Origin: Oceanicoccus sagamiensis
GTDB taxonomy: Bacteria > Pseudomonadota > Gammaproteobacteria > Pseudomonadales > Dasaniaceae
DNA: 64,000 nucleotides
Assembly: GCF_002117105.1 (NCBI RefSeq)
Contig: NZ_CP019343.1
Coordinates: forward strand, 2,852,001-2,916,000
Direction: 5' to 3'
Part shown: piece by piece, positions 36,143-55,994 of the stretch
Position numbering within the stretch: position 1 is the first letter of the stretch
Layout of the letters: the number at the start of each line of letters is the position of its first letter
Notes under the pieces: generated by a model
Databases searched by the model: none
The model's input: the letters and a program-made list of their open reading frames with translations, nothing else
Told to the model about the DNA's origin: nothing
Made by a program: the position numbers and the translations under genes

Positions 36143-36205
36143 CCCAAAGGGGCCCTGACTACCGAGCCCTTGCAGCGTTTGCTCTGCTGATTACTGCGAG
36201 ACCCA

Positions 36206-38124: not shown

Positions 38125-38149
38125 CGCCCAAATCTCCAAGGTCTGTGTT

Positions 38150-41100
38150 ATGAAGGCTGAGGGGCATGGGTTAATTGGTTGGTTTGCCAATAATCCAGTG
38201 GCGGCCAATCTACTGATGTTACTGATTGTTGTAGCAGGGCTGCTCTCAGCCCAAAGTATCAGCAAAGAGATGTTCCCCCAAGCCGAAACAGGCAATATTC
38301 AAATTACGGCCAGCTATCCCGGTGCGGCTCCGATTGAAGTGGAGACAGGGGTGATCTTGCCGATTGAAGCGGCGCTTCAAGGTGAAAAAGGTATTAAGCA
38401 GATACGCTCAACAGCAAGCCGCGATATGGGATCGGTGGTGTTAGAGTTGGAAAGTGACGAAGACCTGAATGAAGTACTGGGCAGGGTAAAAAACCGGATT
38501 GATGGTATTGTCAATTTCCCCGAGCATTTAGAGAAGCCAACGATAAACAAAGAGGAGGTCTTCAGGTTTGTACTGAGCGTTAATGTGGCAGGTAGTTTGG
38601 AGCGCAAGGCGCTCAAGCGTTTGGGGCAGCAGGTTCACGACGAGTTGCTAGCCTTGCCAGAGATAAAACGCTTGATGTTGTGGGGCGTGGAAAATGACGA
38701 AGTCGCCATCGAAGTGCACGAGCAACAGCTGCGTGAATTTGACCTCACTCTCAACGAGGTAGCTTCAATACTCCGGGCCTCCTCGTTTGACCTACCAGCG
38801 GGAATGATCAGGGCTCGGGAAGGCCATATTATGGTTCGCACTCAGGGTAAGGCCTATACCGCCGAAGATTTCTCTGCTCTGGTGCTACGCAGTCATAGCG
38901 ATGGTACAGAGCTGCGTTTGTCCGACGTAGCTACTGTGCGTGACACGCTAGTGGAAACCAATGGTCAGGTACGCTTCGATCAACAATCAGCGGTAAGCAT
39001 TGGGGTGTTTGCACTGCAAGGTCAGAGTCTGTTGGCTATTGATCAGGCTGTAGTCCGTTATGTTGATAATAAACGTTCCAATCTGCCTGAAGGTGTCAGT
39101 CTGGATACCAACTTCCAGACCGCGTTCTATTTGCAAGGGCGTTTGGATATGATGCTGAATAATCTGGCGGTGGGGGCGCTGTTAGTCATGATAGTGCTAA
39201 GCCTGTTTCTCAACCTGTCTGTTGCCGGTTGGGTCATGCTTGGTATTCCGGTAAGTTTTTTAGGTGCGCTATGGTTGATGCCTGTTAACCCCTTTCCAGT
39301 GAATATAACTATTCCCAGTTTGTTCGCCTTTATACTGGTGCTAGGTATCGTGGTGGATGATGCGATAGTGATTGGCGAAAGTATTTATGCGCAAACTCGA
39401 CGACAGGCTGCCAACAAACCCGAGCTGCGTGCAAGCGTTGATACGGTTATCCGCGGCACCAGAAAAGTGGCCGCTCCCGCCACTATTGGTGTACTAACTA
39501 CGGTAGCCGCCTTTGTGCCGATGTTATTTGTTGGCGGTACCATGGCGCCCATGCTGGAAAGCATCGCAGTGGTGGTGATTTTGTGCCTGCTGTTTTCATT
39601 GATCGAATCCAAGCTAATTTTACCCGCTCATTTGGTAGGTATGTCGACGAAGATCAATACTTCGCCGCGCTTTAGTTGGCTCAACAGCTGCCAGCGAGGC
39701 ACTCAAGTGTTGCTTGGCAAACTGATTGAGCGTGGCTATCGTCCCTTGCTAAGCAAAGCTATAGTTTATCGCTATACCGCGCTTGCCGCTTTTTTGGCTT
39801 GCTTGTTAATTGCCATTAATGCGGTGCGTAGTGGTTTAGTCGCTTATGAATTTTTCCCCAATGTCCCCGGCGATATGGTGATGGCAGATATCGTTATGCA
39901 GGAGGGGGCTTCGCGTGACCGGCGAGAGCAAGTTCTGCAAGCGGTGGAGCAGGCTGCCTATCGAGTTAGTGAGAGGCATCAACAACAATATCCGCAGGAA
40001 CCGGTATTACTGGAACATTTATTACTCTATAGCCTGGATGATAACAGTGTACGTTTTAACGCTTCCTTAAATCGCTCAGAACTTAGAAGTGTTAATGCCC
40101 CCGAATTTGAAAAGCTGTGGCGGGAAGCCATGGGGCCGCAGGTGGGTGTGAGGCAGCAGCGCTACTATTCTACAAGCAACGCTTGGGGCGCCAAAATTAA
40201 CCTGTCCCTATCCGGGGCGGATACCTCAGAGTTAACAGCAGCTGGCCGTGAATTACAGAATAAACTGGCAGAATATAAAGGAGTTTATGATATTTATAAC
40301 TCTCAGGGTATCGGTGGCCGCGAGGTGCAAATCAGCCTGAAGCCCCACGCGCAACAAATGGGTATACAACTGGCGGATGTGGCGAGGCAGGTGCGGCAGG
40401 CTTTCTATGGCGAAGAAGTACAACGTCTGCAACGAGGCCCAGATACGGTCAAAGTGATGGTGCGATACCCGCTGGACGAGCGGCGCTCTCTGGCTAGCTT
40501 GGAGCGTATGCAAATTCGCGCTGCCGATGGTCGGGCTGTGGATATTAGAGAGGTCGCTAATTTGCACTTGGGGAATACGGTTTCAGCGATTTCCCGGCTA
40601 GACCGTAAGCGCACGGTTACCATTACGGCCGATGTGGATTCGGAGCTGGCACAAAGTGGCAAAGTGATTAATGAAATAACGACGGAATTTATTCCGCAAC
40701 TGTTAAAGCGTTACCCCTCAGTGTCTTTTGGTCTGGGTGGGGCTAGCTTGGAGCAGCAAACCTTGATGAAGCGAATGATTATTGGCTTTATCGCGTCGTT
40801 GTTTTTTATCTATTCACTGTTGGCTATTCCCTTGCGCTCTTATGTGCAGCCGCTGATTATTATGGCGGCGATTCCTTTTGGTTTTATCGGTGCGCTAATC
40901 GGCCACAGTCTATTTGGGGTTTCCTTTAGTTTGATGTCACTGTTTGGCTTGGTCGCCTTGGCTGGCGTGGTCGTCAATGACAGCCTGATTTTGGTGGAGT
41001 TTACCAATCGTGCCCGCGCCAAGGGCGACTCGGTGGAGGCGGCTCTAGTTAAGGCGGGAACCCAGCGTTTTCGAGCGATTGTACTGACGACCCTGACCAC

Positions 41101-41305
41101 CTTTGCGGGTTTACTCCCCATTTTATTTGAGCGCAGTTTACAAGCGCAATTTGTTATCCCCATGGCGCTGTCGTTGGGTTTTGGTATTGTCTTTGCAACA
41201 GCGATTACTTTGGTTTTAGTGCCTTGTTTATATCGTTCGATTGATGACTTGCCCAAGTTTAGTCGGGGAAAGGTTGTGAGGCCAATGGATGGAGTGCCTG
41301 ACTAG
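38150..41305 (+). CDS. RND-family efflux transporter (AcrB/MexF type)
   Basis: This 1051-residue inner-membrane proton-driven pump has the full RND plan. A first membrane helix (VAANLLMLLIVVAGLLS), a large periplasmic domain, helices 2-6 with the proton-relay Asp pair in LGIVVDDAIVIGESI (about residue 403), the second periplasmic domain and helices 8-12 with GVVVNDSLILVEFTNRARAKG are all present. Substrate cannot be told from sequence. The divergence from the AcrB core fits the poorly studied RND branch common in marine Gammaproteobacteria. It is co-transcribed with the adaptor upstream. No local regulator gene is present. Confidence 0.92.
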   Translation: MKAEGHGLIGWFANNPVAANLLMLLIVVAGLLSAQSISKEMFPQAETGNIQITASYPGAAPIEVETGVILPIEAALQGEKGIKQIRSTASRDMGSVVLELESDEDLNEVLGRVKNRIDGIVNFPEHLEKPTINKEEVFRFVLSVNVAGSLERKALKRLGQQVHDELLALPEIKRLMLWGVENDEVAIEVHEQQLREFDLTLNEVASILRASSFDLPAGMIRAREGHIMVRTQGKAYTAEDFSALVLRSHSDGTELRLSDVATVRDTLVETNGQVRFDQQSAVSIGVFALQGQSLLAIDQAVVRYVDNKRSNLPEGVSLDTNFQTAFYLQGRLDMMLNNLAVGALLVMIVLSLFLNLSVAGWVMLGIPVSFLGALWLMPVNPFPVNITIPSLFAFILVLGIVVDDAIVIGESIYAQTRRQAANKPELRASVDTVIRGTRKVAAPATIGVLTTVAAFVPMLFVGGTMAPMLESIAVVVILCLLFSLIESKLILPAHLVGMSTKINTSPRFSWLNSCQRGTQVLLGKLIERGYRPLLSKAIVYRYTALAAFLACLLIAINAVRSGLVAYEFFPNVPGDMVMADIVMQEGASRDRREQVLQAVEQAAYRVSERHQQQYPQEPVLLEHLLLYSLDDNSVRFNASLNRSELRSVNAPEFEKLWREAMGPQVGVRQQRYYSTSNAWGAKINLSLSGADTSELTAAGRELQNKLAEYKGVYDIYNSQGIGGREVQISLKPHAQQMGIQLADVARQVRQAFYGEEVQRLQRGPDTVKVMVRYPLDERRSLASLERMQIRAADGRAVDIREVANLHLGNTVSAISRLDRKRTVTITADVDSELAQSGKVINEITTEFIPQLLKRYPSVSFGLGGASLEQQTLMKRMIIGFIASLFFIYSLLAIPLRSYVQPLIIMAAIPFGFIGALIGHSLFGVSFSLMSLFGLVALAGVVVNDSLILVEFTNRARAKGDSVEAALVKAGTQRFRAIVLTTLTTFAGLLPILFERSLQAQFVIPMALSLGFGIVFATAITLVLVPCLYRSIDDLPKFSRGKVVRPMDGVPD

Positions 41306-41338
41306 GTTATGTGTACTCTAGCTAAGAGGTAGTCCGGC

Positions 41339-41959
41339 ATGACAATAGAAACGGGAATTCTATTTTTTACTGCCATTCTGATTTTTGCGGTTACACCAGG
41401 ACCTGGGGTTTTTGCTGTACTCGCCCGTTCTTTGGCTTTTGGGGTTCATCGTAGCTTGGCAATGATTATAGGTATCGTGATTAGCGATATCGTATATTTG
41501 CTGATGGCATGCAAAGGGCTATCGTATATTGCAGAAAACTGGTCGCAAGTATTCACTATTATACGGCTGGCCGGTGCAGCCTACCTGATTTATCTGGGTT
41601 GGAATATATGGAATACCCCAGTGACTTTTTATCTGGATGAAAAGCCAACAAATCAGGCGAACGATCATATCAAGTCATTTTTACAAGGCTTTCTGATTTC
41701 GGCCTCTAACCCGAAAGTTATCCTGTTTTATCTGGCCTTTCTTCCTACTTTTATAGATTTAAGCAATCTTACTGGCTCAGATTTATTACTGATGGGGTTT
41801 CTGACATTTGCTGGGCTTTTTTTGTCGCTAATCATTATATCGACAGGTGCAGCTGCGGCCAGACAGTATTTCCAGTCGAAATCGGCAATAGGTCGTCTCA
41901 ATAAAACGGCTGGAGCAACCATGATGGGTGCGGGTGCTTTTCTTGCTTCCCGCCAATAA
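41339..41959 (+). CDS. LysE/RhtB-family exporter
   Basis: This 206-residue protein has five to six hydrophobic helices. The family opening is FFTAILIFAVTPGPGVFAVLARSLAFG, which contains the conserved TPGP, followed by AGAAYLIYLGWNIW and SASNPKVILFYLAFLP. LysE/RhtB members export amino acids and related small molecules; the substrate here is unknown. It lies 33 bases after the RND pump and 35 before the OsmC-type gene, all on the plus strand, so it may share their transcript. Confidence 0.88.
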   Translation: MTIETGILFFTAILIFAVTPGPGVFAVLARSLAFGVHRSLAMIIGIVISDIVYLLMACKGLSYIAENWSQVFTIIRLAGAAYLIYLGWNIWNTPVTFYLDEKPTNQANDHIKSFLQGFLISASNPKVILFYLAFLPTFIDLSNLTGSDLLLMGFLTFAGLFLSLIIISTGAAAARQYFQSKSAIGRLNKTAGATMMGAGAFLASRQ

Positions 41960-41994
41960 GTTTTATCGTTATCAATACAATCCAAGGAGCTATT

Positions 41995-42462
41995 ATGTCT
42001 GAATATACCGCCCAAGTAAGCTGGTCACGCGCTGAAGATGAAAAATACCTCGACAATAAATACAGCAGGGCGCACGAGTGGCATTTTGATGGTGGAGTAA
42101 CTGTCCCCGCATCATCATCGCCCCATATAGTGCCTCTACCTTACTCGGACGAAAACAGTGTAGACCCAGAAGAGGCTTTTGTTGCAGCGCTATCTAGCTG
42201 CCATATGCTCTTTTTTCTTTCTATTGCGGCCAGGCAATCCTTTATTGTGGATAGTTATATTGATAATGCCATGGGAGTGATGGCCAAGAATGAAGAGGGC
42301 CAGTTTGCTATGACTAAGGCTACATTATCACCGGTAATCCAATTTTCAGGTGATAACCAACCCTCACTTGAGCAAATTGACAGGATGCATCATGAAGCCC
42401 ATGAGCAGTGCTTTATTGCTAATTCAGTAAAAACTGATATTACTATTCAGGCGGGTGCTTAA
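41995..42462 (+). CDS. OsmC-family peroxide-reducing protein
   Basis: This 155-residue protein shows the OsmC fold markers SVDPEEAFVAALSSCHMLFFLSIA and AHEQCFIANSVKTDI, giving two conserved cysteines in the positions used for thiol peroxidase chemistry in OsmC/Ohr. An AAGGAG lies 6 bases before the ATG. It probably detoxifies organic peroxides in the cytoplasm. With the pump and exporter it makes a stress-resistance cargo segment of the island. Confidence 0.85.
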   Translation: MSEYTAQVSWSRAEDEKYLDNKYSRAHEWHFDGGVTVPASSSPHIVPLPYSDENSVDPEEAFVAALSSCHMLFFLSIAARQSFIVDSYIDNAMGVMAKNEEGQFAMTKATLSPVIQFSGDNQPSLEQIDRMHHEAHEQCFIANSVKTDITIQAGA

Positions 42463-42571
42463 TGATGGAGTATCTGGCAAGTCTCTATTGAACAGGCTGC
42501 TTCAATATATTGGCCTTGATTTATTATAACTAGACTAGTATTCTGGTCTGGTAATGTATGGAGGAATAATC

Positions 42572-42811
42572 ATGCTCGAAGAAATCGGCTCTTATGACGC
42601 CAAGACCAAGCTGCCTGAGATACTTCGCCGAGTGGAGGCGGGGGAATCTTTTACGATAACCAATCGCGGTAAGCCCATTGCTGATGTTGTGCCAAGTCGT
42701 GCCACTAGTCGCCAGAAGTGCAAGACTGCCATTTCCAACATCAAAAAAGCCAAGAAGTATGAAGTGTCTGATTCGGAGCTTAAGGATATGATGGAATCAG
42801 GCCGGAAATGA
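42572..42811 (+). CDS. Phd/YefM-family antitoxin
   Basis: This 79-residue protein starts MLEEIGSYDAKTKLPEILRRV and contains GESFTITNRGKPIADVVP, the standard DNA-binding N-terminal half of Phd antitoxins. The Lys-rich C-terminal part would wrap the toxin. The ATG at 42572 has GGAGG 8 bases upstream; an earlier ATG at 42554 is less likely. It overlaps the vapC gene by 4 bases (ATGA). Confidence 0.88.
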   Translation: MLEEIGSYDAKTKLPEILRRVEAGESFTITNRGKPIADVVPSRATSRQKCKTAISNIKKAKKYEVSDSELKDMMESGRK

Positions 42812-43236
42812 CGGATTTCGTTTTAGATAACTCGGTCGCCATGCGTTGGCTATTGAATACGAAAAAGGCAGCTGACCAGCAATATGCATTAGATGTTCTG
42901 GATAGCTTGGTAGATGGAACTGCTATCGTGCCTAGCTTGTGGCACCTTGAAGCGACCAATGTGTTGCTGTCGGCAGAGAGGCGCGACGAGATTGGTCTTG
43001 GTGAAATTGAAGGCTTTATCTCTCAACTTGAAAACCTTTCAATTCAAACCGATACGATGACCTCGCATCATGCTTTTAATCGAACATTGACACTGGCGCG
43101 GGCTTATAAGTTGAGCAGCTATGATGCTGCTTATTTGGAGCTGGCTATTCGTGAGGGCTTGCCCTTAGCCACTCTGGATAAAAATCTGGTAAAAGCGGCT
43201 GTTAAAGCAGATATTGAGATACATCTCAGGGAGTAA
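42808..43236 (+). CDS. vapC: VapC-like PIN-domain toxin
   Basis: This 142-residue PIN ribonuclease has all four acidic active-site residues: D7 (FVLDNSVAMRWLL), E48 (WHLEATNVL), D106 (SSYDAAYLELA) and D124 (ATLDKNL). VapC toxins cut tRNA or rRNA when the antitoxin is lost. It is the right-most gene of the island, translationally coupled to the Phd antitoxin, and 219 bases from the attR tRNA fragment. Confidence 0.9.
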   Translation: MTDFVLDNSVAMRWLLNTKKAADQQYALDVLDSLVDGTAIVPSLWHLEATNVLLSAERRDEIGLGEIEGFISQLENLSIQTDTMTSHHAFNRTLTLARAYKLSSYDAAYLELAIREGLPLATLDKNLVKAAVKADIEIHLRE

Positions 43237-43319
43237 TGTTTGATAACGGGCGGCCAATATAGTCAAGGAATTGCCAGGGTGCGCTATGCTCAAAGCCTGG
43301 AATCTCAAAACTGATATTC

Positions 43320-43339
43320 GCGTGACAAATACGTGACAA
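43320..43339. repeat. 20-base island-end repeat, right copy
   Basis: This copy is identical to 34246-34265 and in the same orientation. On the minus strand it again encodes LSRICHA, and that frame continues 30 codons to a stop at about 43230 without integrase similarity. GTGACC at about 43374 may be a further half-site. Confidence 0.8.
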
Positions 43340-43455
43340 GCCACCTGCACAAAAGCGCCTTTTGCTGATTAAACGTGACCAAATTGCACAGAAGCCAGTT
43401 TTTTAAGTGATTGAAAAATAAAGAATTTTAAGCATTATGAAATTCTAATATGCCT

Positions 43456-43517
43456 CTGGCAGTGTTGTACCCTCCGGGCATAAAAGGTCAGCGGTTCGAT
43501 CCCGCTTAGCTCCACCA
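43456..43517 (+). other. attR: partial tRNA-Ala 3' end with 17-base insertion
   Basis: CTGGCAGTGTTG (43456-43467) and the 33 bases 43485-43517 match the 3' part of tRNA-Ala at 34110-34154. They are split by 17 foreign bases (43468-43484). The acceptor 5' half, D-arm and 5' anticodon stem are absent, so this is not a functional tRNA. It marks the right island junction. Confidence 0.88.
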
Positions 43518-43544
43518 CTCTTTTGTAGATAGCAGTAGTAAGTC

Positions 43545-43580
43545 AAAACCCTCGTCCGGCTAACCGCCACGGGGGTTTTT
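43545..43580 (+). terminator. Terminator after the attR tRNA fragment
   Basis: AAAACCCTCGT (43545-43555) pairs with ACGGGGGTTTT (43569-43579) with one G-U pair, followed by T. It is closely related to the terminator after tRNA-Ala at 34162-34193 and is probably the original chromosomal terminator of that tRNA. Confidence 0.75.
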
Positions 43581-44040
43581 GCTTTTGGTCTGTAAGCATA
43601 TTTCTAATTTCCCTCTCCGTATTTTGCTATCAAGGCTCCTGCTCGACCAAGGCGGTTTTTTATGTCGTTTCAGCAGTGCTCAAGTGGTGCTGAGTTCGAC
43701 TATTGTTTTTAGTGCTTTTAAAAGCGCAGCTCATGGTGGGGTTGGGCTCAGTCGAGAGCCCTATAAAGCTGAGGTTTAATTTATTCGGTTTTAAAATTTA
43801 AACTGCGAAGAAATATAATGATTTTTTTAGCATAGCTGCCGTTTTATGCTTTGCACAGACAACATTGTGCAGGAGATCTGGTAGATAGTGTGATGACTGC
43901 CGCTATTTGAAGTTATCAGGCTGGTATTGCAGCTTGCTATCGCGTTGAATAGAAATATATCAGCAAAAATAGCGTAAATTTTAAATATTGGACTAGACTA
44001 AAGCTACATTATTTTAGGGTGAAGTGGTAAAGGTAGATCG
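43581..44040. other. Intergenic region right of the island
   Basis: This is AT-rich and apparently non-coding. A 66-codon frame at 43579-43779 starts inside the terminator and has no ribosome-binding site or family look. A possible promoter for the next small gene is described separately. Confidence 0.5.
43988..44015 (+). promoter_or_regulatory. Candidate promoter for the small gene at 44041
   Basis: TTGGAC (43988-43993), a 16-base spacer and TATTTT (44010-44015) lie 25 bases before the small gene. The boxes are imperfect. Confidence 0.35.
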
Positions 44041-44238
44041 ATGAAAGCATTAGCCAGTATGGCCGTTAAATTTAAGTCAAAAACTTCCGGTGGCAACGGT
44101 TCTGTTGCCGTCAAGATAGATCAAAATAGTGCCTGGGAAAAACCGCCAGAAGTGTTGGTTAAACAGCGCCCGGTTAGCGAGCAGGTTAAGCCTATGGTGG
44201 CAGAAGATAGCCAGTATTTTGAGCTTGGGTATAACTAA
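44041..44238 (+). CDS. Small hypothetical protein
   Basis: This 65-residue basic protein (MKALASMAVKFKSKTSGGNG...) has no signal peptide or membrane segment. An AAGGTAG lies 7-12 bases before the ATG and a plausible promoter lies just upstream. The sequence is Lys/Val/Gln-rich and probably disordered. I do not recognise a family, and it could be chance, though the ribosome-binding site and isolation favour a real gene. Confidence 0.45.
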   Translation: MKALASMAVKFKSKTSGGNGSVAVKIDQNSAWEKPPEVLVKQRPVSEQVKPMVAEDSQYFELGYN

Positions 44239-44291
44239 TAGTTAGCTGAATATCGGTATTTTAAACTGTGGGTGCTGTGCTGCCCTCACGC

Positions 44292-45131
44292 TTAGTTCCC
44301 CGTATTATCTTTAGCAATCTGCGTAACACAGTCAGGGTTTTCCACTTTATCGGTAATTTTAAGGTGGGGGACTAAGTCCGGTGCATCCATCCCCAGCAAT
44401 AATTGCTCAAGCTTGCCGTTATTACTCAATTTTTTATTGGTCAGGAAGTAGTCTCGACAGAGGCTGGCAGCCTTTTTTTCGCCCAGAGTTTGGCTGGAGA
44501 ACGCGATATAAATATTTAATGTATCAATCTGAAGCAGCCGTTCAATTTCAACCTCAAATTTTTCACTCCAGACATGATCAAAGTATAAGGCGCCAATGGC
44601 AAAATCAATTTTACCTTTTGCCAGGGCCTTAAACAGAAACTCGTTGCGGGGATAGTAAAAGACATTGTCGGCCTGACCGGCGGGTTGTTTTTCTACCCGT
44701 ACTAAACCGACCCGGTAATTGGCTAAATCCCTGGGCGTTTGTATGGTTAAATCCCTTGAAGCCAACTTATAAATCGACAGTGGAATATTACCAACCGGCG
44801 CTGGGCTGACGTAAGTATCAGGTGGGGGCTGTATCGATTGTGTGGAACCTATGGTTAGTGCCATTACATCCGCCTTACCTGTTTTTAAACTGTGCAATGC
44901 TCGGGTATATAGCAGCGCTTTATAGTTGACTGGCACCGCCATATCATCAAACACCGCGCCCATTAGCTCTCGACTAATACCCTGGGGTTTGCCCTGGTCG
45001 TCGATATAGCTCCATGGTTTGCCTGCTGCTGTGACGATGACCTTGAGGGGTTCTTCAGCTTGAGCGCTGGCAGTACTTGCGAGAGTGAATAAAAGAGCTA
45101 TTTGCACGGTGAAGGTGTATAGATATGACAT
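44292..45131 (-). CDS. Periplasmic solute-binding protein (SBP_bac_3-like)
   Basis: This protein of about 279 residues has a signal peptide (MSYLYTFTVQIALLFTLASTASA). The mature part opens LKVIVTAAGKPWSYIDDQGKPQGISRELM, the typical ligand-binding start of the amino-acid binding-protein fold (PF00497). No transporter permease is adjacent, so it may work as a stand-alone sensor or binding protein, as many such proteins do in marine Gammaproteobacteria. The ATG at 45131 is used; a GTG 15 bases upstream (45146) is equally possible because neither has a clear ribosome-binding site. Confidence 0.75.
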   Translation of the reverse strand: MSYLYTFTVQIALLFTLASTASAQAEEPLKVIVTAAGKPWSYIDDQGKPQGISRELMGAVFDDMAVPVNYKALLYTRALHSLKTGKADVMALTIGSTQSIQPPPDTYVSPAPVGNIPLSIYKLASRDLTIQTPRDLANYRVGLVRVEKQPAGQADNVFYYPRNEFLFKALAKGKIDFAIGALYFDHVWSEKFEVEIERLLQIDTLNIYIAFSSQTLGEKKAASLCRDYFLTNKKLSNNGKLEQLLLGMDAPDLVPHLKITDKVENPDCVTQIAKDNTGN

Positions 45132-45304
45132 AAGTGTGATCGGCACTGTTGAGTTGTCAGTTTCTTTAAGTAAAGCAGATTTAGCGGGATTTTAAAATAT
45201 AACCCGGTTTTCTAGTCGGCAGGCCTTTCGTGGGGGGCTTCTGTCATAAAAATACTTAGTGTATATTGCGGTTTCATTCATTGATGTTTCCAGGACGACC
45301 TGCC

Positions 45305-45553
45305 ATGAAAAAGTTTATGTTATTAATTGCCATCGCCTTATATTTTCCTGCTCTGGCCTCCGCGGTTGATTACGGTAAGTTGGCTGACTCTGTCGACAAA
45401 GAAAAAGCTGCTGGCTCTGTTGATGGGGCCAAATTAAAAGACGCTGTCGAGGGTGATAAGGTCGACTATAAGAAGGCGTATGACTCAGTCGATAAAGAAA
45501 AAGCGGCGGATTCCATTGATAAGAAAAAGGCTACAGAAGCACTGATGAAGTAA
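45305..45553 (+). CDS. Small periplasmic protein with internal charged repeats
   Basis: This 82-residue protein has a signal peptide (MKKFMLLIAIALYFPALASA). The mature 62 residues consist of two tandem copies of a 30-32 residue unit, VDYGKLADSVDKEKAAGSVD... and VDYKKAYDSVDKEKAADSID.... Inside each, shorter D-S-V-D-K-E-K-A-A units alternate acidic and basic residues. The repeat is also visible in the DNA. No enzyme motif is present. The alternating charge suggests a flexible polyampholyte or an amphipathic helix. The ATG at 45305 gives the clean signal peptide; an upstream ATG does not. Confidence 0.65.
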   Translation: MKKFMLLIAIALYFPALASAVDYGKLADSVDKEKAAGSVDGAKLKDAVEGDKVDYKKAYDSVDKEKAADSIDKKKATEALMK

Positions 45554-45570
45554 TATACCGTCGAAATCTT

Positions 45571-45786
45571 TTGAAGACTATTAACCCTAAAAAACTCTTA
45601 AACAGTAAATGGACCTCGGTATCACCCGCTAAAAAAGAAAAACATTTTATCGTGACCGAGGTTGAATTTGATGAAGAGGGTATCGTTGTTCACTGCATGA
45701 TTGAGGCGGTTATCTCCAAGCGCTCAAGCCCTATTGAATGGCGAGCGTTAAAAGATTCCAGGCAATGGCTGTATGGCTGGAAGTAG
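45571..45786 (+). CDS. Conserved small protein, TIGR02450 family
   Basis: This 71-residue protein begins with a TTG at 45571. The pattern NPKKLLNSKWTSVSPAKKEKHFIV ... EAVISKRSSPIEWRALKDSRQWLYGWK matches my memory of the TIGR02450 family: small, Trp-containing, of unknown function and common in Gammaproteobacteria. It starts 17 bases after the repeat-protein stop and 21 bases before the next gene, so the three may share a transcript. Confidence 0.75.
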   Translation: MKTINPKKLLNSKWTSVSPAKKEKHFIVTEVEFDEEGIVVHCMIEAVISKRSSPIEWRALKDSRQWLYGWK

Positions 45787-45807
45787 CAGGCTAGCAGTAC
45801 TGGAAGT

Positions 45808-46143
45808 ATGAAAAAAACCGATAAGAAAATAGATAAGGCTATTATTGCCGCGTTGACGGATGTCTGCGATATAGCTCTGGCTGAGGTGGCCGGTTTTCAG
45901 TGGCTTACCCATCGGGTTGATTATAAAAGGTTTCCGGGTTCCCTGCTGGTTGTGTGTGTCTTCGCTAGCAAGGCCGAGCTGTCAACGGCGATAGAGCTAG
46001 GCAAAGACCATTATCTACGGCAATTAATCAAAGAAAAGCTACAGCCTGTTATTCCTGTTAAAAATGCGGCTTATCAACTGAAGTTTGATACGGAAGAAGC
46101 CTGTGAGTTGGAGCATGGCGGCCAATGGAGCCAGCGTTTGTAG
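45808..46143 (+). CDS. Conserved hypothetical protein
   Basis: This 111-residue cytoplasmic protein (MKKTDKKIDKAIIAALTDVCDIALAEVAGFQWLTHRVDY...) has no membrane segment. It resembles a small protein found in many marine Gammaproteobacteria whose role is unknown. In databases it is sometimes loosely labelled as a Fis-type regulator, but I see no helix-turn-helix. It lies between the TIGR02450 gene and the dehalogenase gene on the same strand. Confidence 0.65.
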   Translation: MKKTDKKIDKAIIAALTDVCDIALAEVAGFQWLTHRVDYKRFPGSLLVVCVFASKAELSTAIELGKDHYLRQLIKEKLQPVIPVKNAAYQLKFDTEEACELEHGGQWSQRL

Positions 46144-46181
46144 TTCGATAGCTTACTGTTTTTATTGAGGAATTATTGATT

Positions 46182-46865
46182 ATGAGCCATCAGCCATTAG
46201 CGGGAAAACGTATTTTTATCACCCATGCCGATGTGTTTATGGGGCCTACCTTATGTAAGGTCTTAACCGAGCAGGGGGCTACCGTTATTGCTGATACCCA
46301 CTCTCTGCTAGATAAAGATGAGCCTGCCGCGCTGATAGAAGCCGCAGGTGATATTGATATATTAATTGCCAGCCTGGCGATACCGGCACCGACCTCATTG
46401 GCTATTGAAGCTAGCGATCAGGAGTGGGCCCATACCTTTGCCCATTTGGTGGACCCTTTGCCACGCCTGTGTCGTGCTGTCTTGCCACAGATGATTGAGC
46501 GCCAGGCGGGTAAAATACTGGTGGTGGGCAGTGCTTCGGCCCTGCGAGGTATTAAGCGTGCCAGCACATACAGTGCGGCACGGGGTGCGCAGTTAGCCTA
46601 TGCGCAATCGCTGGCTCTGGAGGTGGCAAAAGAGGGGGTGCAGGTTAATGCGATTGCACAAAACTTTGTCGATAACCCCACCTATTTCCCGCAAGAGGTA
46701 CAGCAAATGCCGGCGTTTCAGGAGAGGCTAAAGCGGGAAGTCCCGCTGGGTCGTTTGGTGACGATGGAGGAAGATTCAACGTTTATTGCTTATCTTTGCA
46801 GCGATGCCGCCAACTGTTTTGTTGGTCAGGTATTTCCTGTCTGTGGCGGCTGGGTTAACCGCTAG
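46182..46865 (+). CDS. Halohydrin dehalogenase (SDR-type haloalcohol dehalogenase)
   Basis: This 227-residue protein of the SDR fold shows the full halohydrin dehalogenase fingerprint. In place of the NAD-binding glycine loop it has T14-x4-F19-x-G21 (ITHADVFMGP), which forms the halide pocket. The catalytic set is S117-x12-Y130-x3-R134 (SASALRGIKRASTYSAAR), with Arg instead of the SDR lysine. The later QNFVDNPTYFPQE resembles the halide-side loop of HheC. Such enzymes close vicinal haloalcohols to epoxides, releasing halide, and can run in reverse with azide, cyanide or nitrite. The gene is tail to tail with pdxJ, overlapping by 4 bases. The native substrate is unknown, and no haloalkane dehalogenase or epoxide hydrolase is nearby. 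ATG 46182 is used; a TTG 6 bases upstream is possible. Confidence 0.85.
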   Translation: MSHQPLAGKRIFITHADVFMGPTLCKVLTEQGATVIADTHSLLDKDEPAALIEAAGDIDILIASLAIPAPTSLAIEASDQEWAHTFAHLVDPLPRLCRAVLPQMIERQAGKILVVGSASALRGIKRASTYSAARGAQLAYAQSLALEVAKEGVQVNAIAQNFVDNPTYFPQEVQQMPAFQERLKREVPLGRLVTMEEDSTFIAYLCSDAANCFVGQVFPVCGGWVNR

Positions 46866-47641
46866 GTCTTACCTAAGCAGCGTTGATAGGCTTTGACGGC
46901 ATTGGCCAGCCCCATGCTGATGGCATCGACAGTCATGGCATGGCCAATTGAAACCTCTAGCAGTTGCGGGATAGTGGCAAAGCGGCTCAGGTTATCCAGA
47001 TTTAAATCATGACCTGCATTAAGGCCAATATTAATATCCTGAGCTTTTTCCCCAGCGCGGTAAAACTGTTCGAACACGGCATCGGCATTGTTATTAGTCT
47101 TAATAGCATCGGCATAGGGCCCCGTATATAACTCAATACGATCAGCTCCTACCTGTTTGGCCAGTTCAATTTGCTGCAAATCCGGGTCCATAAATAGACT
47201 GACACGGACCCCCAGCTTTTGCAGTTCCTGAATAATAGGGGCCAGTTGATCACCGCTTTGGGTTAAATCAAAACCATGGTCAGAGGTCAGTTGCTCATTG
47301 CTATCCGGCACCAAGGTGCATTGAGCCGGTTTGATATCTTTCACTAAATCAATAAAACCCGGGTAATCACTAACACCAGGTCGATCGCTCTTCATAGCGG
47401 GTGCAAAAGGGTTGCCCTCAATATTAAACTCCACGCTTAACATCGTGGCTAGATCATAGCAGTCATCCACGCGGATATGACGCTGGTCTGGGCGGGGGTG
47501 AACGGTAATGCCATCGGCGCCTGCATCAATACAGATTTGCGCATGGTGGGTAACGCTGGGGTAGGTGGTATCGCGGGAATTTCTAATCAGGGCGATTTTA
47601 TTCAGATTAACGCTAAGATCAGCTGGCTTGGATTGGCTCAC
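46862..47641 (-). CDS. pdxJ: Pyridoxine 5'-phosphate synthase
   Basis: This 259-residue TIM-barrel enzyme joins 1-deoxyxylulose 5-phosphate and 3-amino-2-oxopropyl phosphate to make vitamin B6. Family blocks are VNLNKIALIRNSRDTTYPS, AGADGITVHPRPDQRHI and GLNAGHDLNLDNL near the end. It diverges from the E. coli form (HPRPDQRHI against HLREDRRHI) and is away from its usual recO-pdxJ place, so it may belong to another branch of the family. The 3' end overlaps the dehalogenase gene by 4 bases. Confidence 0.88.
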   Translation of the reverse strand: MSQSKPADLSVNLNKIALIRNSRDTTYPSVTHHAQICIDAGADGITVHPRPDQRHIRVDDCYDLATMLSVEFNIEGNPFAPAMKSDRPGVSDYPGFIDLVKDIKPAQCTLVPDSNEQLTSDHGFDLTQSGDQLAPIIQELQKLGVRVSLFMDPDLQQIELAKQVGADRIELYTGPYADAIKTNNNADAVFEQFYRAGEKAQDINIGLNAGHDLNLDNLSRFATIPQLLEVSIGHAMTVDAISMGLANAVKAYQRCLGKT

Positions 47642-47665
47642 AGTATTCCCGCTTAATGGCTTCAG

Positions 47666-48250
47666 TTACTTAATAATTTCAACGCGTTCGATATAGACCG
47701 GTTCAACCGGCACATCGGCGTAGCTACCTAATGTCATGGTCGGTGTTTTTTCAATGCTTTTAACCACATACTGGCCGTCGGTAACAATGGCAAAAACTGC
47801 ATAACCCGGGGTTTTGCCTTTTTTATCCAGACTGGAATTCATTTTGGTATTAATAAAAAATTGCGAGGTGGCGCTGTCGGGGTCGTTGGTTCTTGCCATA
47901 GCCAGAGTCCAGCGGTCGTTGTGCAGGCCGTTGCCGGATTCGTTAGCGATAGGCGCCTTGGGGTTTTTTCTCTGCATCTCTTTGGTAAAGCCACCGCCTT
48001 GAATCATAAAGCGTTTAATCACCCGGTGAAAAATCGTGTCGTTGTAAAAGCCAGACTCGGCATAGTCAATAAAGTTGGCTACGGTGATGGGGGCTTCTTT
48101 AGCATATAGCTCAATAGTGATTGGACCTTTGGTGGTGTGGATGATCGCCGTTGGATTTTTTGGCGTACTGTCCTTATCGGCTGCAAAGACAGGCATACAG
48201 GCCAAGCCTGAAAAAATTAAAGATAATAATAAGAGCGTCTGTTTTTTCAT
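47666..48250 (-). CDS. Periplasmic peptidyl-prolyl isomerase (cyclophilin type)
   Basis: This 194-residue protein has a signal peptide (MKKQTLLLLSLIFSGLACMPVFA). The mature cyclophilin domain has IELYAKEAPITVANF, FHRVIKRFMIQGGGF, NESGNGLHNDRWTLAMARTNDPDSATSQFFIN and GYAVFAIVTDG. The catalytic FHR and FMIQGG residues are kept. It speeds folding of exported proteins in the periplasm, like PpiA. It is 25 bases upstream of pdxJ on the same strand, and a repeat element lies just before its start. Confidence 0.92.
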   Translation of the reverse strand: MKKQTLLLLSLIFSGLACMPVFAADKDSTPKNPTAIIHTTKGPITIELYAKEAPITVANFIDYAESGFYNDTIFHRVIKRFMIQGGGFTKEMQRKNPKAPIANESGNGLHNDRWTLAMARTNDPDSATSQFFINTKMNSSLDKKGKTPGYAVFAIVTDGQYVVKSIEKTPTMTLGSYADVPVEPVYIERVEIIK

Positions 48251-48280
48251 TACTGTATCCCGTTCTTCTGAATGACTGAT

Positions 48281-48325
48281 GCCGGATTATAATCCGGCCT
48301 ACTGTAGGGTGGATTATAATCCACC
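48281..48325. repeat. REPIN-like repeat, copy 3 (irregular)
   Basis: A complete arm (48304-48325, core GGTGGATTATAATCCACC) is preceded by a related palindrome GCCGGATTATAATCCGGC at 48281-48298. The pair is closely spaced and not a standard inverted pair, so this copy is rearranged or a different subtype. It lies in the gap between two minus-strand genes (48251-48344). Confidence 0.8.
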
Positions 48326-48344
48326 ACCCACCCACACTAATACA

Positions 48345-49004
48345 TTATGCCCAATCAGTACTTTTCTTGGGCCATGCTCTGGGGACAATCAAGGTAATCA
48401 TAACACCAATCAACACGGCAAAAGCGCCATTCAGAAAAGCATCGCTCTCCTGATTATCTACCAGACGTTGGTTATCCGTAGAGAGCACCTCGACTTCATT
48501 TTTTAACATTTGATTTTCTTCGAGTAAGCGCTGGTTGTCTTCATTCAGTTGAATCGCATTGGCAGAGATCGCTTTAATATTTTCCAGCTCTTTGCTGACT
48601 TCGTTGTTGTTGCTGGTAAGCGATGTCAGTTTATCCTGAGTACTGGCATGCTTGCTGCTGATCTCATTAAGCTGCTGTTTAAGCGCTGAATTTTTACCTT
48701 CCAGGTTGGCAATCGTGCCCTGGGCGGTTTTATACATCGCCCTGCCGGAAGGTTGTTGGCTTAAGTCCTGATTTTGAACCCAGCCTTCGATACCTTTGCG
48801 GGTGCGTACCTGGATGTAACTGCCATCTTCGCTTGTCCCAATTTGAGTGAGTGATGTCCCGCTAACCAGATATTTAACAATACGGTATTCATTGCTTTGG
48901 CCACTGCGCATTGCCACCGTTAGCTGGTCGCTGACATAAAGGGTTTGGCTGTAAAGTTGGCTGCTGGCGGCGAATAACGCCAACCATAGAACAAGGTTTT
49001 TCAC
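48345..49004 (-). CDS. SH3/coiled-coil membrane protein (TIGR04211/YgiM type)
   Basis: This 219-residue protein has a signal peptide (MKNLVLWLALFAASSQLYS). A bacterial SH3 domain (about 22-85, TLYVSDQLTVAMRSGQSNEYRIV ... GIEGWVQNQDL) is followed by a long coiled coil (about 95-180, Leu/Gln/Asn/Glu-rich) and a C-terminal membrane helix (LNGAFAVLIGVMITLIV). The plan is the same as E. coli YgiM. Its role is unknown; SH3b domains often bind cell wall. Confidence 0.82.
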   Translation of the reverse strand: MKNLVLWLALFAASSQLYSQTLYVSDQLTVAMRSGQSNEYRIVKYLVSGTSLTQIGTSEDGSYIQVRTRKGIEGWVQNQDLSQQPSGRAMYKTAQGTIANLEGKNSALKQQLNEISSKHASTQDKLTSLTSNNNEVSKELENIKAISANAIQLNEDNQRLLEENQMLKNEVEVLSTDNQRLVDNQESDAFLNGAFAVLIGVMITLIVPRAWPKKSTDWA

Positions 49005-49097
49005 TGGGTTTTCCTTCTGGTCTGGCTGTGCTGATTGCTAATAAGAATTATACGTTTTTTATCTTGCTATTATAGACCCTGATCAGGGGTGCGACGC

Positions 49098-49814
49098 TTA
49101 AGCCTCGTTAAATATTTCCTCAGCTTTTAAATGCGTTAATTTTTGAATATGGTGCAGCAAATAATACAGCGCGCCCATGAGTACAATGGTGCTGGGTAGA
49201 GCTATAACGGGGAAGCTAAGTGCGGTCATTTTGCCGAGTTCCTCGGTAAAGGCTACGGTGCCCGGCTCGCTGACCAGGATGACTTTGGCCAGAATATAAT
49301 TGAGTACCGATGATAGAAAAAACGAGCCAGCGACCATATACGAGGCATTGACCAGTTTATGCTCAAAGGCATCCTGGTTATGGTTGGCCTCCAGCGCTGC
49401 TTTGACCTTGTCGATTTGCAGTATTTGATCATTAAACAGAAAGGTTTTGACCAGCGGGTATTTGGTTCGAACGGAGAATAGGGTGGCAAGGCCAAAACAA
49501 GCGGGAATAGCGGCCTCTTTAATCGCAATATATTGCGGGTCCAGTTGTAACAGGCTAATACCGCCTGTTAATACCACACTCAGGATACCCAGAGCAGAAA
49601 AGAAGTTGGCTTTATGGTTCTCCAGATAATCTTTGACTCCAAAGATGATCGGGAAGCTGAGCGCCACCACAATACTGTAAACCGGCCCCAAATAATCCTC
49701 GGAGCTGAGTTTGGTCATAATCAGGGTAGGGATAATGATATTAAAGGCCAAATTGGCGAGCATGCTGGGCTTTTTTTCTTTTTTGGGCTGCTGCTGTGTT
49801 GGTTCGGTGGTCAC
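49098..49814 (-). CDS. Multi-pass membrane protein, VC0807-like
   Basis: This 238-residue inner-membrane protein has about five to six helices. It opens with a charged KKEKKPSMLANLAFNIIIPTLIM, then GPVYSIVVALSFPIIFG, SALGILSVVLTGGISLLQ, MVAGSFFLSSVLNYILAKVIL and LSFPVIALPSTIVLMGALYYLLHHI. The order of these segments recalls the VC0807 family of unknown function, but that match is from memory. It lies 93 bases upstream of the SH3 gene on the same strand. Confidence 0.6.
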   Translation of the reverse strand: MTTEPTQQQPKKEKKPSMLANLAFNIIIPTLIMTKLSSEDYLGPVYSIVVALSFPIIFGVKDYLENHKANFFSALGILSVVLTGGISLLQLDPQYIAIKEAAIPACFGLATLFSVRTKYPLVKTFLFNDQILQIDKVKAALEANHNQDAFEHKLVNASYMVAGSFFLSSVLNYILAKVILVSEPGTVAFTEELGKMTALSFPVIALPSTIVLMGALYYLLHHIQKLTHLKAEEIFNEA

Positions 49815-49967
49815 TGAGTAAACGGCTCCTGATTAAATCACGCTTTAATCACTGGTATTGTGCTGCTAGGCATTAATGGAGGCAAATAATGCCACAAATT
49901 GCGTTACTATGTTGTCCACCATTTCTCCAATTGGCGATTTATTTTTCTGACTGCAAGGTATCTACCG

Positions 49968-50795
49968 GTGAATATTGATTTTCACAGCCATACTACCGCC
50001 TCCGATGGCGCCCTGACCCCAATGGATGTATTACTCCGTGCCAGAGAGCAGGGCGTTGAGATGATGGCGATTACTGATCACGATACGGTCAGTGGCTATC
50101 AGTCTGTGCGGGAGCAGTGGCAGGACGATACGATGCAGTTAATCGCCGGGGTGGAGTTGTCCTGCCTCTGGGGGCGACGTTTGATTCATGTAGTAGGCCT
50201 GAATATCAATATTGATAACCAGCTCCTGCAACAGGGTCTGGCCGAACAGCAGCAGTCGCGCCTTGATCGGGCGGTATTGATCGGCGATAAGCTGGCTAAA
50301 CAAGGCTTTGAGGGGGGGTATGCCTTTGTTGCGCAATTGGCCGGTGACAGCCAAATTGGCCGCCCGCATTTTGCTCAATTTCTGGTTGAGCGAGGGCATG
50401 TTAGCTCGGAGAAAGAGGCTTTTAAGCGTTATCTGGGCGCTGGCAAAATTGGCGATGTAAAATCCAGCTGGCCGGAGATGGCCAAGGTTATCCAGTGGAT
50501 TAATGATAGCGGTGGGGTCGCGGTTTTGGCCCACCCCTTACATTATAAAATGACAGCCACTAAACTGCGGGCCCTGGTGACAGATTTTAAAGCACAAGGT
50601 GGCGCCGCTATTGAGGTGATTAGTGGCAAACAGCCCAAAGACCGCACCCAGTACCTGGCACAACTAACCGAGCAGTTTGACTTGGCGGCATCCATTGGCA
50701 GTGATTTCCACCGCCCCGGCATGCCATGGAATGAGTTAGGGCAGGCAGGCGTTTTGCCCAAGAGTTGCCAACCCGTTTGGTCAGTATTCAAGTAG
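49968..50795 (+). CDS. rnm: RNase AM (PHP-domain 5'-3' exonuclease, YciV type)
   Basis: This 275-residue PHP-domain enzyme has metal ligands in IDFHSHTTASDGALTP, ITDHDTVSGY, AGVELSC, VLAHPLHY and IGSDFHRPG. The E. coli homologue (formerly YciV) trims the 5' ends of rRNA. The GTG at 49968 starts at the first PHP strand (MNIDFHSH); the frame is open 23 codons upstream, but those residues are not family-like. The stop TAG (50793-50795) lies inside a REPIN arm. yciO follows, as in E. coli. Confidence 0.9.
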   Translation: MNIDFHSHTTASDGALTPMDVLLRAREQGVEMMAITDHDTVSGYQSVREQWQDDTMQLIAGVELSCLWGRRLIHVVGLNINIDNQLLQQGLAEQQQSRLDRAVLIGDKLAKQGFEGGYAFVAQLAGDSQIGRPHFAQFLVERGHVSSEKEAFKRYLGAGKIGDVKSSWPEMAKVIQWINDSGGVAVLAHPLHYKMTATKLRALVTDFKAQGGAAIEVISGKQPKDRTQYLAQLTEQFDLAASIGSDFHRPGMPWNELGQAGVLPKSCQPVWSVFK

Positions 50796-50857
50796 GGTGG
50801 ATTACAATCCATCATGATGCATAAGCGGTGATAATGGTGGATTATAATCCACCCGAC
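50792..50857. repeat. REPIN-like inverted repeat, copy 4
   Basis: The left arm at 50792-50813 has the core GGTGGATTACAATCCATC and the right arm at 50836-50857 has GGTGGATTATAATCCACC. They are near-complementary with three mismatches. The GTAG of the left arm provides the rnm stop codon, and the repeat ends 11 bases before the yciO start. Confidence 0.88.
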
Positions 50858-50868
50858 GGAGTGAGTTA

Positions 50869-51495
50869 ATGAGTCAGTTTTTCCAAATACACCCGGATAA
50901 CCCGCAATCGCGGTTGATTAACCAGGCGGTGGATATTATTCGCAAAGGAGGGGTGGTGGTTTACCCCACGGATTCTGGCTATGCTCTGGGCTGCCATTTG
51001 GGCGATAAAAGGGCGCTGGAAACCATCCGCCGTATCCGCAAGCTGGATGCCAAGCACAACTTTACCCTGATCTGTCGGGATTTATCGGAGTTGGGCAACT
51101 ATGCCCGGGTTGATAATAGCGCCTACCGCTTGCTTAAAAATCATACCCCAGGGCCTTATACCTTTATTCTCAAAGCCACCAGCGAAGTGCCCAAACGCTT
51201 AATGCATCCCAAGCGTAAAACCATTGGCCTGCGGGTGCCGGAAAACAATATCACCCGTGAGCTATTGGCGGGCCTGAATGAGCCTATGATGAGTGTTACG
51301 ATGATGCTGCCGGGAGATGACCAGCCCATGACCGACCCTTATGAGATCCGCCAGACTCTGGAACATGAGCTGGATCTGGTGATTGATGGTGGATACTGCG
51401 GTATGGAGCCTACCTCGGTGATTGATCTGGTGGAAGATACCCCGGAAATTATCCGCCGCGGCCAGGGTGACGTAAGCCACTTTGAGGTGGATTAA
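50869..51495 (+). CDS. yciO: YciO-family (Sua5/YrdC-like) protein
   Basis: This 208-residue protein of the YrdC/Sua5 fold has blocks GGVVVYPTDSGYALGCHLGD, PGPYTFILKATSEVPKRL, KRKTIGLRVP and a C-terminal PTSVIDLV. YrdC itself makes threonylcarbamoyl-AMP for tRNA t6A; YciO is a paralogue with a weaker or different role. The rnm-yciO-scpA order is common in Gammaproteobacteria. Confidence 0.9.
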   Translation: MSQFFQIHPDNPQSRLINQAVDIIRKGGVVVYPTDSGYALGCHLGDKRALETIRRIRKLDAKHNFTLICRDLSELGNYARVDNSAYRLLKNHTPGPYTFILKATSEVPKRLMHPKRKTIGLRVPENNITRELLAGLNEPMMSVTMMLPGDDQPMTDPYEIRQTLEHELDLVIDGGYCGMEPTSVIDLVEDTPEIIRRGQGDVSHFEVD

Positions 51496-51600
51496 TCGGT
51501 CTGGCTACTGTGATCAGATAAGCATTGCCTATATAATGGCTGCCATTGAAATAGCACCCTTTAGCCCAACAACCCCAAGCAGTGAGATAACAATAAATCC

Positions 51601-52530
51601 GTGGATGACGAGCTAGTAATAGACAAGGCCCCTGAAGATCAGGCTTTTGCCCCAGAAGAACCCGTGCTGGTGGACGCTGTGGCGGAAACTGCGGCGGCGG
51701 AGAATCAGCCCTCACCGGGTTTAAAAGAGTTGCGCAGCGGTGGTTCACAGCAGGGTGAGATGCCTTTTGCTGTTGTTCAGGGTGAGGCTGTTACCGAGAT
51801 CCCTCAGGATTTATATATTCCCCCCGATGCGCTGGAAGTCTTTCTGGACGCCTTTGAAGGCCCCCTGGATCTGTTGCTCTATCTGATCAAGCGCCAGAAT
51901 ATTGATATTCTCGAAATCAATGTCGCCAATATCACCCATCAATATATGCAGTATGTGGCGATGATGGATTCTATGCAGTTTGAGCTGGCGGCGGAATATC
52001 TGCTAATGGCGGCGATGCTGGCCGAAATTAAATCCCGTATGCTTTTACCCCGTTCTGCCGATGCGGAAGAAGATGAAGAAGATCCGCGGGCACAGCTGAT
52101 TCGTCGCTTGCAGGAATATGAGCGCTTTAAGCAAGCCGCTGAAGATATTGACGAGATGCCCCGTCTGGGCCGTGAAATCTTTGAAGCCAGCGCTGCGCCA
52201 CCGGATGTTAAAAAGGAACGCCCGGAGCCGGTGGTTGAAATGAAAGAAATTCTATTAGCCCTGGGTGAAGTGCTGCGCCGCGCCGATATGTATGAAAGCC
52301 ATCAGGTACAAAAAGAAAAGCTGTCTACCCGTGAGCGTATGTCGCAGGTATTGACCATGTTATCGGATAATTCCTTTACCCCATTTGTATCCCTGTTTAC
52401 CGTTGAAGAAGGCCGCCTGGGTGTGGTGGTTACCTTTCTGGCGGTTATGGAATTAATTAAAGAATCACTGGTTGAAATTGTTCAGTCTGAACCTTTTGGC
52501 CCCATCCACGTTAAAGCAAGATCATCATGA
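51601..52530 (+). CDS. scpA: Segregation and condensation protein A
   Basis: This 309-residue kleisin subunit bridges the SMC ring. The conserved core starts at VFLDAFEGPLDLLLYLIKRQ (about residue 80) and contains EYLLMAAMLAEIKSRMLLPR. The first 75 or so residues are an acidic, Ala/Glu-rich extension. The GTG start at 51601 keeps that extension, and an internal ATG near GEMPFAVVQGEAV could also serve. It overlaps scpB by 4 bases (ATGA). Confidence 0.92.
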   Translation: MDDELVIDKAPEDQAFAPEEPVLVDAVAETAAAENQPSPGLKELRSGGSQQGEMPFAVVQGEAVTEIPQDLYIPPDALEVFLDAFEGPLDLLLYLIKRQNIDILEINVANITHQYMQYVAMMDSMQFELAAEYLLMAAMLAEIKSRMLLPRSADAEEDEEDPRAQLIRRLQEYERFKQAAEDIDEMPRLGREIFEASAAPPDVKKERPEPVVEMKEILLALGEVLRRADMYESHQVQKEKLSTRERMSQVLTMLSDNSFTPFVSLFTVEEGRLGVVVTFLAVMELIKESLVEIVQSEPFGPIHVKARSS

Positions 52531-53366
52531 GTATCGATAGCAAACAATTACAAAATATTCTTGAAGGTGCCTTATTGGCTTCGGCAAAACCCTTGACCGT
52601 GGCACAAATGGCCGAGTTGTTTGATGAGGAAATGGAAGAGCGTCCGGCCAATGATGTGATTCGCGCGGTGTTGGAAGATATTCAACACGCCTGTGAAGGC
52701 CGCGGCTTTGAATTAAAAGAAGTGAATAGTGGTTTTCGCTTTCAGGTAGTGCAAACGGTTGCCCCTTGGGTGGGTCGTTTATGGGAAGAAAAACCCCAGA
52801 AATATTCTCGTGCCCTGTTGGAGACACTGGCCTTAATCGCTTATCGCCAGCCTATTACCCGAGGTGATATCGAAGATATTCGCGGTGTTGCGGTTAGCTC
52901 CAATATTATTAAAACCCTGTTAGAGCGTGAGTGGGTTCGTGTAGTAGGCCATAAAGATGTACCGGGTCGCCCTGCCATGTATGCGACTACAAGGCGTTTC
53001 CTGGATTATTTTAATCTTAAAAATCTGGAAGATTTACCGACGCTGGCTGAAATTCGTGACCTTGATACCATGAATGAAGAGTTAGCCCTTGAAGGGGCTG
53101 ATACGCTTGACCCTGAAGCCGTTGCTGCGGGTACTGAAGATACTCTGGGTGAAGATACGGTCAGTGAAGAAAGCCCTGCTGCGGATTTAGATAACGACGA
53201 TACGGCCAATACTGACGATGCTACCGTTGAAATGGAATTTATTGATGAGCTGGATGACCATGCAAACGATGATAGTAATACCGTTGAAGCGGTTGAGACA
53301 GACGCTGGCGATAGCGAGTCCATCGACGAGACCAAAGCGGGCGATGAAAGCGATATCCCTGCTTAA
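52527..53366 (+). CDS. scpB: Segregation and condensation protein B
   Basis: This 279-residue protein has two winged-helix domains (about 1-90 and 95-180) with LESALALIAYRQPITRGDIEDIRGV-like sequence (here ALLETLALIAYRQPITRGDI) and DVPGRPAMYATT. The last 90 or so residues are a strongly acidic Asp/Glu/Ala/Thr tail, probably disordered and longer than in most ScpB. It works with ScpA and SMC in chromosome compaction. Confidence 0.93.
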   Translation: MSIDSKQLQNILEGALLASAKPLTVAQMAELFDEEMEERPANDVIRAVLEDIQHACEGRGFELKEVNSGFRFQVVQTVAPWVGRLWEEKPQKYSRALLETLALIAYRQPITRGDIEDIRGVAVSSNIIKTLLEREWVRVVGHKDVPGRPAMYATTRRFLDYFNLKNLEDLPTLAEIRDLDTMNEELALEGADTLDPEAVAAGTEDTLGEDTVSEESPAADLDNDDTANTDDATVEMEFIDELDDHANDDSNTVEAVETDAGDSESIDETKAGDESDIPA

Positions 53367-53404
53367 TTGCTATTCCCTTTTAAAGTAAACAAAAGCTAAA
53401 TGTT

Positions 53405-54250: not shown

Positions 54251-54277
54251 GTTCACACTATCTGTTAGATGTAGCTT

Positions 54278-54760: not shown

Positions 54761-54763
54761 CGG

Positions 54764-55690: not shown

Positions 55691-55994
55691 AACTCTAAAG
55701 CCTCAAAGCATTACTACATATTATCCGGTGGCAGGTATGGCAAAACACACCTGAAACGGTCTACTAAAGGCTAAATAGCGAAAACTGTGCCACAAATCAC
55801 ACTGTCTTATTAAGTCTATGATAAATAAGAGAAAAAATATTAAAGAGGGTTGTGTTTGGGGGCTTGGGCGGCAAAAGCGGCAATGTTTGATTGCCGTCAG
55901 TCAAAGTTCTGCCGCTGGCTTTGCCGCTTTGGTTGATGCTGTCTGTACAGCGGTTTGTGGAAGGTTGCGCGACTCAAATCAGGGCCCGAACACT
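55691..55994. other. Intergenic region upstream of the diguanylate cyclase
   Basis: No supported gene. An 85-codon frame (55818-56075) runs through the REPIN and is not convincing. The region should hold the promoter of the minus-strand cyclase gene, but I see no clear boxes. Confidence 0.4.

Follow-up and report, generated by a model that had tools for sequence, protein, structure and literature searches.

Does the gene at positions 46182 to 46865 of the Oceanicoccus sagamiensis DNA studied here (a stretch of 64,000 nucleotides of contig NZ_CP019343.1, hereafter the window) encode a halohydrin dehalogenase (HHDH) or an ordinary SDR protein, and what could such an enzyme do next to pdxJ? The features that bear on this question are the following.

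46182-46865, plus strand: coding sequence of 227 amino acids, assigned to the D-type halohydrin dehalogenases from its motifs, homologues, tree position and predicted fold
46221-46244, plus strand: motif 1, THADVFMG, residues 14-21, putative nucleophile (halide) pocket loop, from sequence motif and conservation
46530-46583, plus strand: motif 2, S117-x12-Y130-x3-R134, predicted catalytic triad, from sequence motif and conservation
46167-46171, plus strand: GAGGA, likely ribosome-binding site 10 bases 5' of the ATG, as read from the sequence
45808-46143, plus strand: ORF of 111 amino acids upstream of the HHDH gene, ending 38 bases before its start codon
46862-47641, minus strand: pdxJ, convergent with the HHDH gene and overlapping it by 4 bases at the stop codon

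The HHDH start codon is the ATG at 46182; the program-made list of ORFs has an alternative TTG start two codons further 5', which gives a protein of 229 amino acids. A scan for promoters and terminators at the gene yielded no more than expected by chance. The GC content of block 46000-46999 (0.509) falls within the range of 0.42-0.55 spanned by blocks 36000 to 55999 and thus gives no argument for or against recent transfer.

Two HHDH motifs, described together with the reaction mechanism in passages of a 2016 review (PMC4989007), are found at exactly the residues numbered in a preliminary description of this DNA. Motif 1, T-x4-F/Y-x-G, is THADVFMG at residues 14-21 (T14, F19, G21), and motif 2, S-x12-Y-x3-R, is SASALRGIKRASTYSAAR at residues 117-134 (S117, Y130, R134), with arginine instead of the SDR lysine. 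Pattern searches of the 227-residue sequence return neither the SDR glycine loop [TS]-G-x3-[GA]-x-G, which had rightly been described as missing, nor the SDR triad S-x12-Y-x3-K. Among the stop-to-stop ORFs of at least 100 amino acids in the window (n = 105), motif 1 occurs in nine and motif 2 in five, and the only one with both is the HHDH itself; shuffling of the HHDH protein brings both motifs together, at any position, in 63 of 200,000 shuffles. At E ≤ 1e-3 the protein has 33 matching places in the host genome, and the motif comparison covered eight of these 33, HHDH included: the seven SDR relatives compared all have S-x12-Y-x3-K, five have the glycine motif and none has either HHDH motif. 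Neither HHDH motif is found in L019 to L027, the nine weakest of the 27 loci obtained in the genome-contig search.

The alternative that these motifs are matched by chance in an ordinary NAD(P)-dependent FabG-like SDR draws on the general family libraries. Pfam assigns adh_short_C2 and adh_short, both over the cut-off, and the best 25 of the 186 NCBIfam rows are mostly SDR reductases, all below the cut-off. As no NCBIfam row among these best 25 passes the cut-off and the Pfam domains are generic to SDRs, automatic annotation would probably call the protein an SDR; the PDB molecule names of entries 7b73 and 8xxb are likewise "SDR". The lack of both the glycine loop and Y-x3-K argues against this alternative, as does the comparison with solved proteins. 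phmmer against the PDB places 7b73 (E = 3e-99) and 8xxb (E = 3.8e-88) on top, followed by HheB (4zd6, E = 1.9e-49; 5b12, E = 9.7e-49) and then by 6a41 and other HHDHs. The first ordinary SDR, 8y11, comes at E = 6.9e-21 and the first FabG at 2.7e-20, and HheD2 scores about 258 bits above the best FabG. HheG and HheC, more distant relatives of the window protein, rank behind 8y11 and FabG.

A structural model, which the preliminary description had called for, was obtained with AlphaFold2 for the monomer from a 50-row alignment, with a mean pLDDT of 90.8 and a pTM of 0.90. The last five residues (223-227) have pLDDT below 50, and the block 121-130, which includes Y130, averages 69, so that the modelled detail around the catalytic loop is untrustworthy. 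Foldseek titles identify two of the matched structures as HheD2 (7b73, 66% identity) and a triple mutant of HheD8 (8xxb). VIA also gives HheD2 as the best match (Z 34.9 and rmsd 1.4, with 223 residues aligned), with Z values of 32.3-32.6 for HheD8 and HheB, whereas the other 46 of the 50 entries listed, including 6a41, have Z ≤ 28.7 and the FabG chains Z ≤ 28.6. The Rossmann fold of the model thus fits best the solved HHDHs HheD2, HheD8 and HheB, while the fold by itself is common to SDRs (Z about 28), a point in favour of the FabG-like alternative.

The phylogeny, also proposed earlier, separates the two readings further. The IQ-TREE tree has 62 rows, namely 50 HHDH-like frames (window and fetched loci), five PDB stretches and seven other SDRs; it leaves aside L008 (a near copy), L017 (a fragment), HheA, HheF and HheG, and includes HheC and 6a41 as the partial stretches printed by HMMER. 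The window protein, HheD2 and HheD8 fall into one group of 36 rows (support 99/99), to which a 6-row HheB group (99/96) adjoins, the two together being supported at 100/99. Beyond these two groups lie 11 rows that come from the order of the host and are 37-44% identical to the window protein. The seven other SDRs split from the HHDHs at 99/96, a separation to be read with three of these seven rows (L019, L020 and L022) themselves lacking Y-x3-K, with long branches leading to HheC and four SDR rows, and with a program warning about adjoining long branches among the SDRs. L069 sits on a zero-length branch to 7b73. By path, two loci from Betaproteobacteria (L009 and L010) come nearest to the window protein, which belongs to no starred set comprising at most half of the rows and whose place within the D group is thus not fixed. 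The missing SDR motifs, the PDB scores and the grouping with HheD2 and HheD8, away from the seven other SDRs, leave the ordinary SDR with chance motifs a negligible probability.

The motifs, the best solved homologues, the tree and the predicted fold lead us to conclude, with high confidence, that the product of the window gene is a halohydrin dehalogenase that works without a cofactor and belongs to subtype D (HheD), the enzyme family being the one named from the outset; by homology, we infer that it would release halide. It resembles HheD2 most: the two are 66% identical across 224 aligned columns and share both motifs, and HheD2 is the top match of the predicted fold. They differ at positions 64 (S in the window protein, N in HheD2), 124 (I and M) and 145 (A and G). 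HheD8 is likewise a D-type enzyme with both motifs; the mutant is 60-62% identical to the window protein, but the protein crystallised in 8xxb, with chloride, is engineered (A69F/M124P/R127G). HheB (4zd6, 5b12) represents a neighbouring subtype with a common fold and 40-41% identity, yet forms its own group in the tree (99/96). By its description in part of PMC6922532, HheD12 of Pseudomonas pelagia is comparable as a D-type enzyme of a marine gammaproteobacterium. For HheD19 to HheD38, passages of PMC4989007 give an identity of 57-95% with verified D enzymes, a range within which the window protein falls with its 66% to HheD2.

Conservation was assessed on alignment A2, in which 33 fetched rows are D-type, with more than 55% identity to the window protein. 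T14, F19, G21, F86, S117, A118, Y130 and R134 are invariant in all 33, and so are Q160, N161, F162 and Y168. Since the catalytic residues are conserved, the mechanism given in those parts of PMC4989007 can be carried over to the window enzyme. By homology, Ser117 would hold the hydroxyl of a vicinal haloalcohol and Arg134 would lower the pKa of Tyr130, which would take the proton; the alkoxide would then displace the halide into the pocket of the T14-F19-G21 loop, yielding an epoxide. In the reverse reaction, which runs with several nucleophiles in HHDHs according to the same review, halide, azide, cyanide or nitrite would open the epoxide. The window protein departs from the ≥80% D consensus at nine positions, including S64, I124 and A145. 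Position 124 is M in 28 of the 33 D rows and is one of the three residues altered in the HheD8 mutant 8xxb; position 145 is G in all 33. Because I124 and A145 are off the D consensus and residue 124 was engineered in HheD8, the substrate preference of the window enzyme may be shifted relative to other D enzymes.

The genes around the HHDH could have offered a clue to its substrate. The adjacency of pdxJ, already remarked upon, is real, and Pfam and family searches found no halogenated-compound pathway, as had also been stated; pdxJ does not serve as a clue. In nine of nine genus and family relatives the gene after pdxJ is the same cyclophilin gene, and the other side of pdxJ, over the 1.7 to about 7 kb available per genome, carries in these nine neither an HHDH nor any other gene of the 19 from the window that were compared. 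In a whole-genome search at E ≤ 1e-40 eight of the nine have no HHDH (one of the nine, G004, being 64% complete), and in G005 the HHDH homologue is on a different contig from pdxJ. As no HHDH lies beside pdxJ in the nine relatives, we take pdxJ as a chance neighbour, uninformative and probably functionally unrelated to HHDH. The arrangement fits an HHDH gene located at the edge of a conserved backbone and inserted in the host lineage.

The 111-amino-acid gene, which has no Pfam match, is close enough in front and on the same strand for a possible co-transcription with the HHDH gene, and it is no known HHDH partner. Its homologues are found in seven of the 27 genomes searched, window included, and in the five genus and family relatives with a homologue it is on another contig than pdxJ. 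A pathway joining HHDH to pdxJ or to this gene, for which the adjacency of both speaks, is therefore very improbable in view of these separate locations and of pdxJ standing apart from any HHDH in the relatives.

Other genes of the window are noted for the record. Positions 36847-42462 (plus strand) carry efflux genes of HlyD and AcrB type and, after them, genes for a LysE-type exporter and an OsmC-like protein. Positions 42554-43236 (plus strand) encode a Phd/YefM-like antitoxin (28.2 bits; Pfam cut-off 29.8) and then a protein with a PIN domain; the two probably form a type II toxin-antitoxin pair. At 45266-45553 (plus strand) is a 95-amino-acid protein that has no Pfam match, an apparent signal peptide and, by eye, repeated units like DSVDKEKAAD.

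Neighbours were also compared by ORF clustering at 52 HHDH loci, window included, of which 36 are D-like (with L017 and L008); the locus of G040 (L039, on a short contig) and four further matches of the class were outside this set. Adjacent genes recur mainly among close kin, and no halogen-linked neighbour was recognised at the other D loci, where Pfam was run on few neighbours. In family f42, a GNAT acetyltransferase gene upstream and a DnaT-domain gene downstream are found in six of six loci (Pfam on L066 only), and five loci of Comamonadaceae type have in common a downstream gene of 191-211 amino acids with no Pfam match (L016 tested). A signalling pair, made of an 813-879-amino-acid protein (REC-PAS-GGDEF-EAL by Pfam on L072) and a 459-478-amino-acid gene, lies directly 3' of HHDH in four of five f29/g57 loci (L067, L072, L074 and L077); in L081, from another family, the pair is 3-4 genes before HHDH and 47-57% identical. 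Signalling genes of this kind are common, and in the window the cluster is represented only by a distant member of 308 amino acids, 11 genes from HHDH; the pair is therefore not taken as a functional clue.

The D-type gene is widespread but patchy, as seen in the match counts of the order, class, genus and contig searches. In the order of the host, 35 of 390 genomes match the HHDH at E ≤ 1e-30: 18 are D-like (at least 59% identity, window included), five HheB-like (46-53%) and 12 distant (37-44%), the D-like gene being present in 17 of the 389 other genomes drawn. Matches were found in five of 369 genomes in the class draw and, at E ≤ 1e-40, in five of 57 relatives, the window counted in both. 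Two of the seven genomes of the genus have one, the window and G005, whose homologue (L094) is 42% identical and outside the D group. Of the 27 loci of the genome-contig search, 18 are at 62-76% identity and 15 of these come from Betaproteobacteria. A single plasmid record of 72,556 matches at E ≤ 1e-30 (Novosphingobium, 42.8% identity).

What remains is the physiological role. Passages of PMC11536340 give the detoxification and degradation of haloalcohols as the assumed natural function of HHDHs, and we privilege, tentatively, the hypothesis of a stand-alone gene, probably acquired horizontally, whose product detoxifies or uses small natural haloalcohols. The host genome was searched for four halogen- or epoxide-related families, which represent some but not all possible routes. 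Five matches to haloacid dehalogenase type II (TIGR01428) came up, none over the cut-off, and neither the epoxide hydrolase N-terminal domain (PF06441) nor tryptophan halogenase (PF04820) has a match; the LEH family (limonene-1,2-epoxide hydrolase, PF07858) has three matches over the cut-off, unlinked to HHDH. That these LEH-family proteins hydrolyse the epoxide product of HHDH is speculation. The D-type scaffold could also serve physiologically to open an endogenous epoxide with another anion, or to make a halohydrin from an epoxide and environmental halide, a proposal in keeping with the several nucleophiles of the reverse reaction, with the lack of a recognised halocarbon gene near D-type genes and with the LEH-family matches. 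Nothing positive favours it, however, and the literature, as far as that part of PMC11536340 goes, assumes haloalcohol detoxification; we consider it unlikely. More doubtful still is the broader idea that D-type HHDHs are roaming stand-alone genes that serve in aquatic bacteria to control natural bromo- or chlorohydrins or endogenous epoxides rather than to break down xenobiotics, with the I124 enzyme of the window preferring a substrate of no characterised HheD.

The question of the natural substrate, put in the preliminary description, is not special to the gene: it is already a question for all HheD enzymes, and no new one is raised. The motifs, the D subtype, the HheD2 and HheD8 structures and a D member from a marine gammaproteobacterium (HheD12, in the portion of PMC6922532 cited above) are known; what is new here is a sequence of a known subtype. 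The D subtype was populous already in 2016, judging from the enzymes named in PMC4989007. One well-supported D member, 66% identical to HheD2, is added as a candidate biocatalyst, together with a reminder that general family libraries label such HHDH genes as plain SDRs.

Two groups outside the D subtype have settings of their own. In three loci of one genus (L083, L084 and L085; f40/g42) the HHDH is HheB-like, 49-53% identical to the window protein. A few genes past it are a glyoxalase-family gene, a glutathione S-transferase gene, a gene of 367-377 amino acids and a large gene in the same cluster as the AcrB-type transporter of the window, while malate synthase G is divergent upstream (Pfam on L084 only); this common setting hints at glutathione-linked detoxification. 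In seven genomes of f45/g65 (L088 to L093 and L095), which carry a distant HHDH group 37-44% identical to the window protein, a DsbA-like thioredoxin-domain gene is directly upstream of HHDH in six of the seven loci and a family III CoA-transferase gene is near it, also in six of seven (Pfam on L090 only for both).
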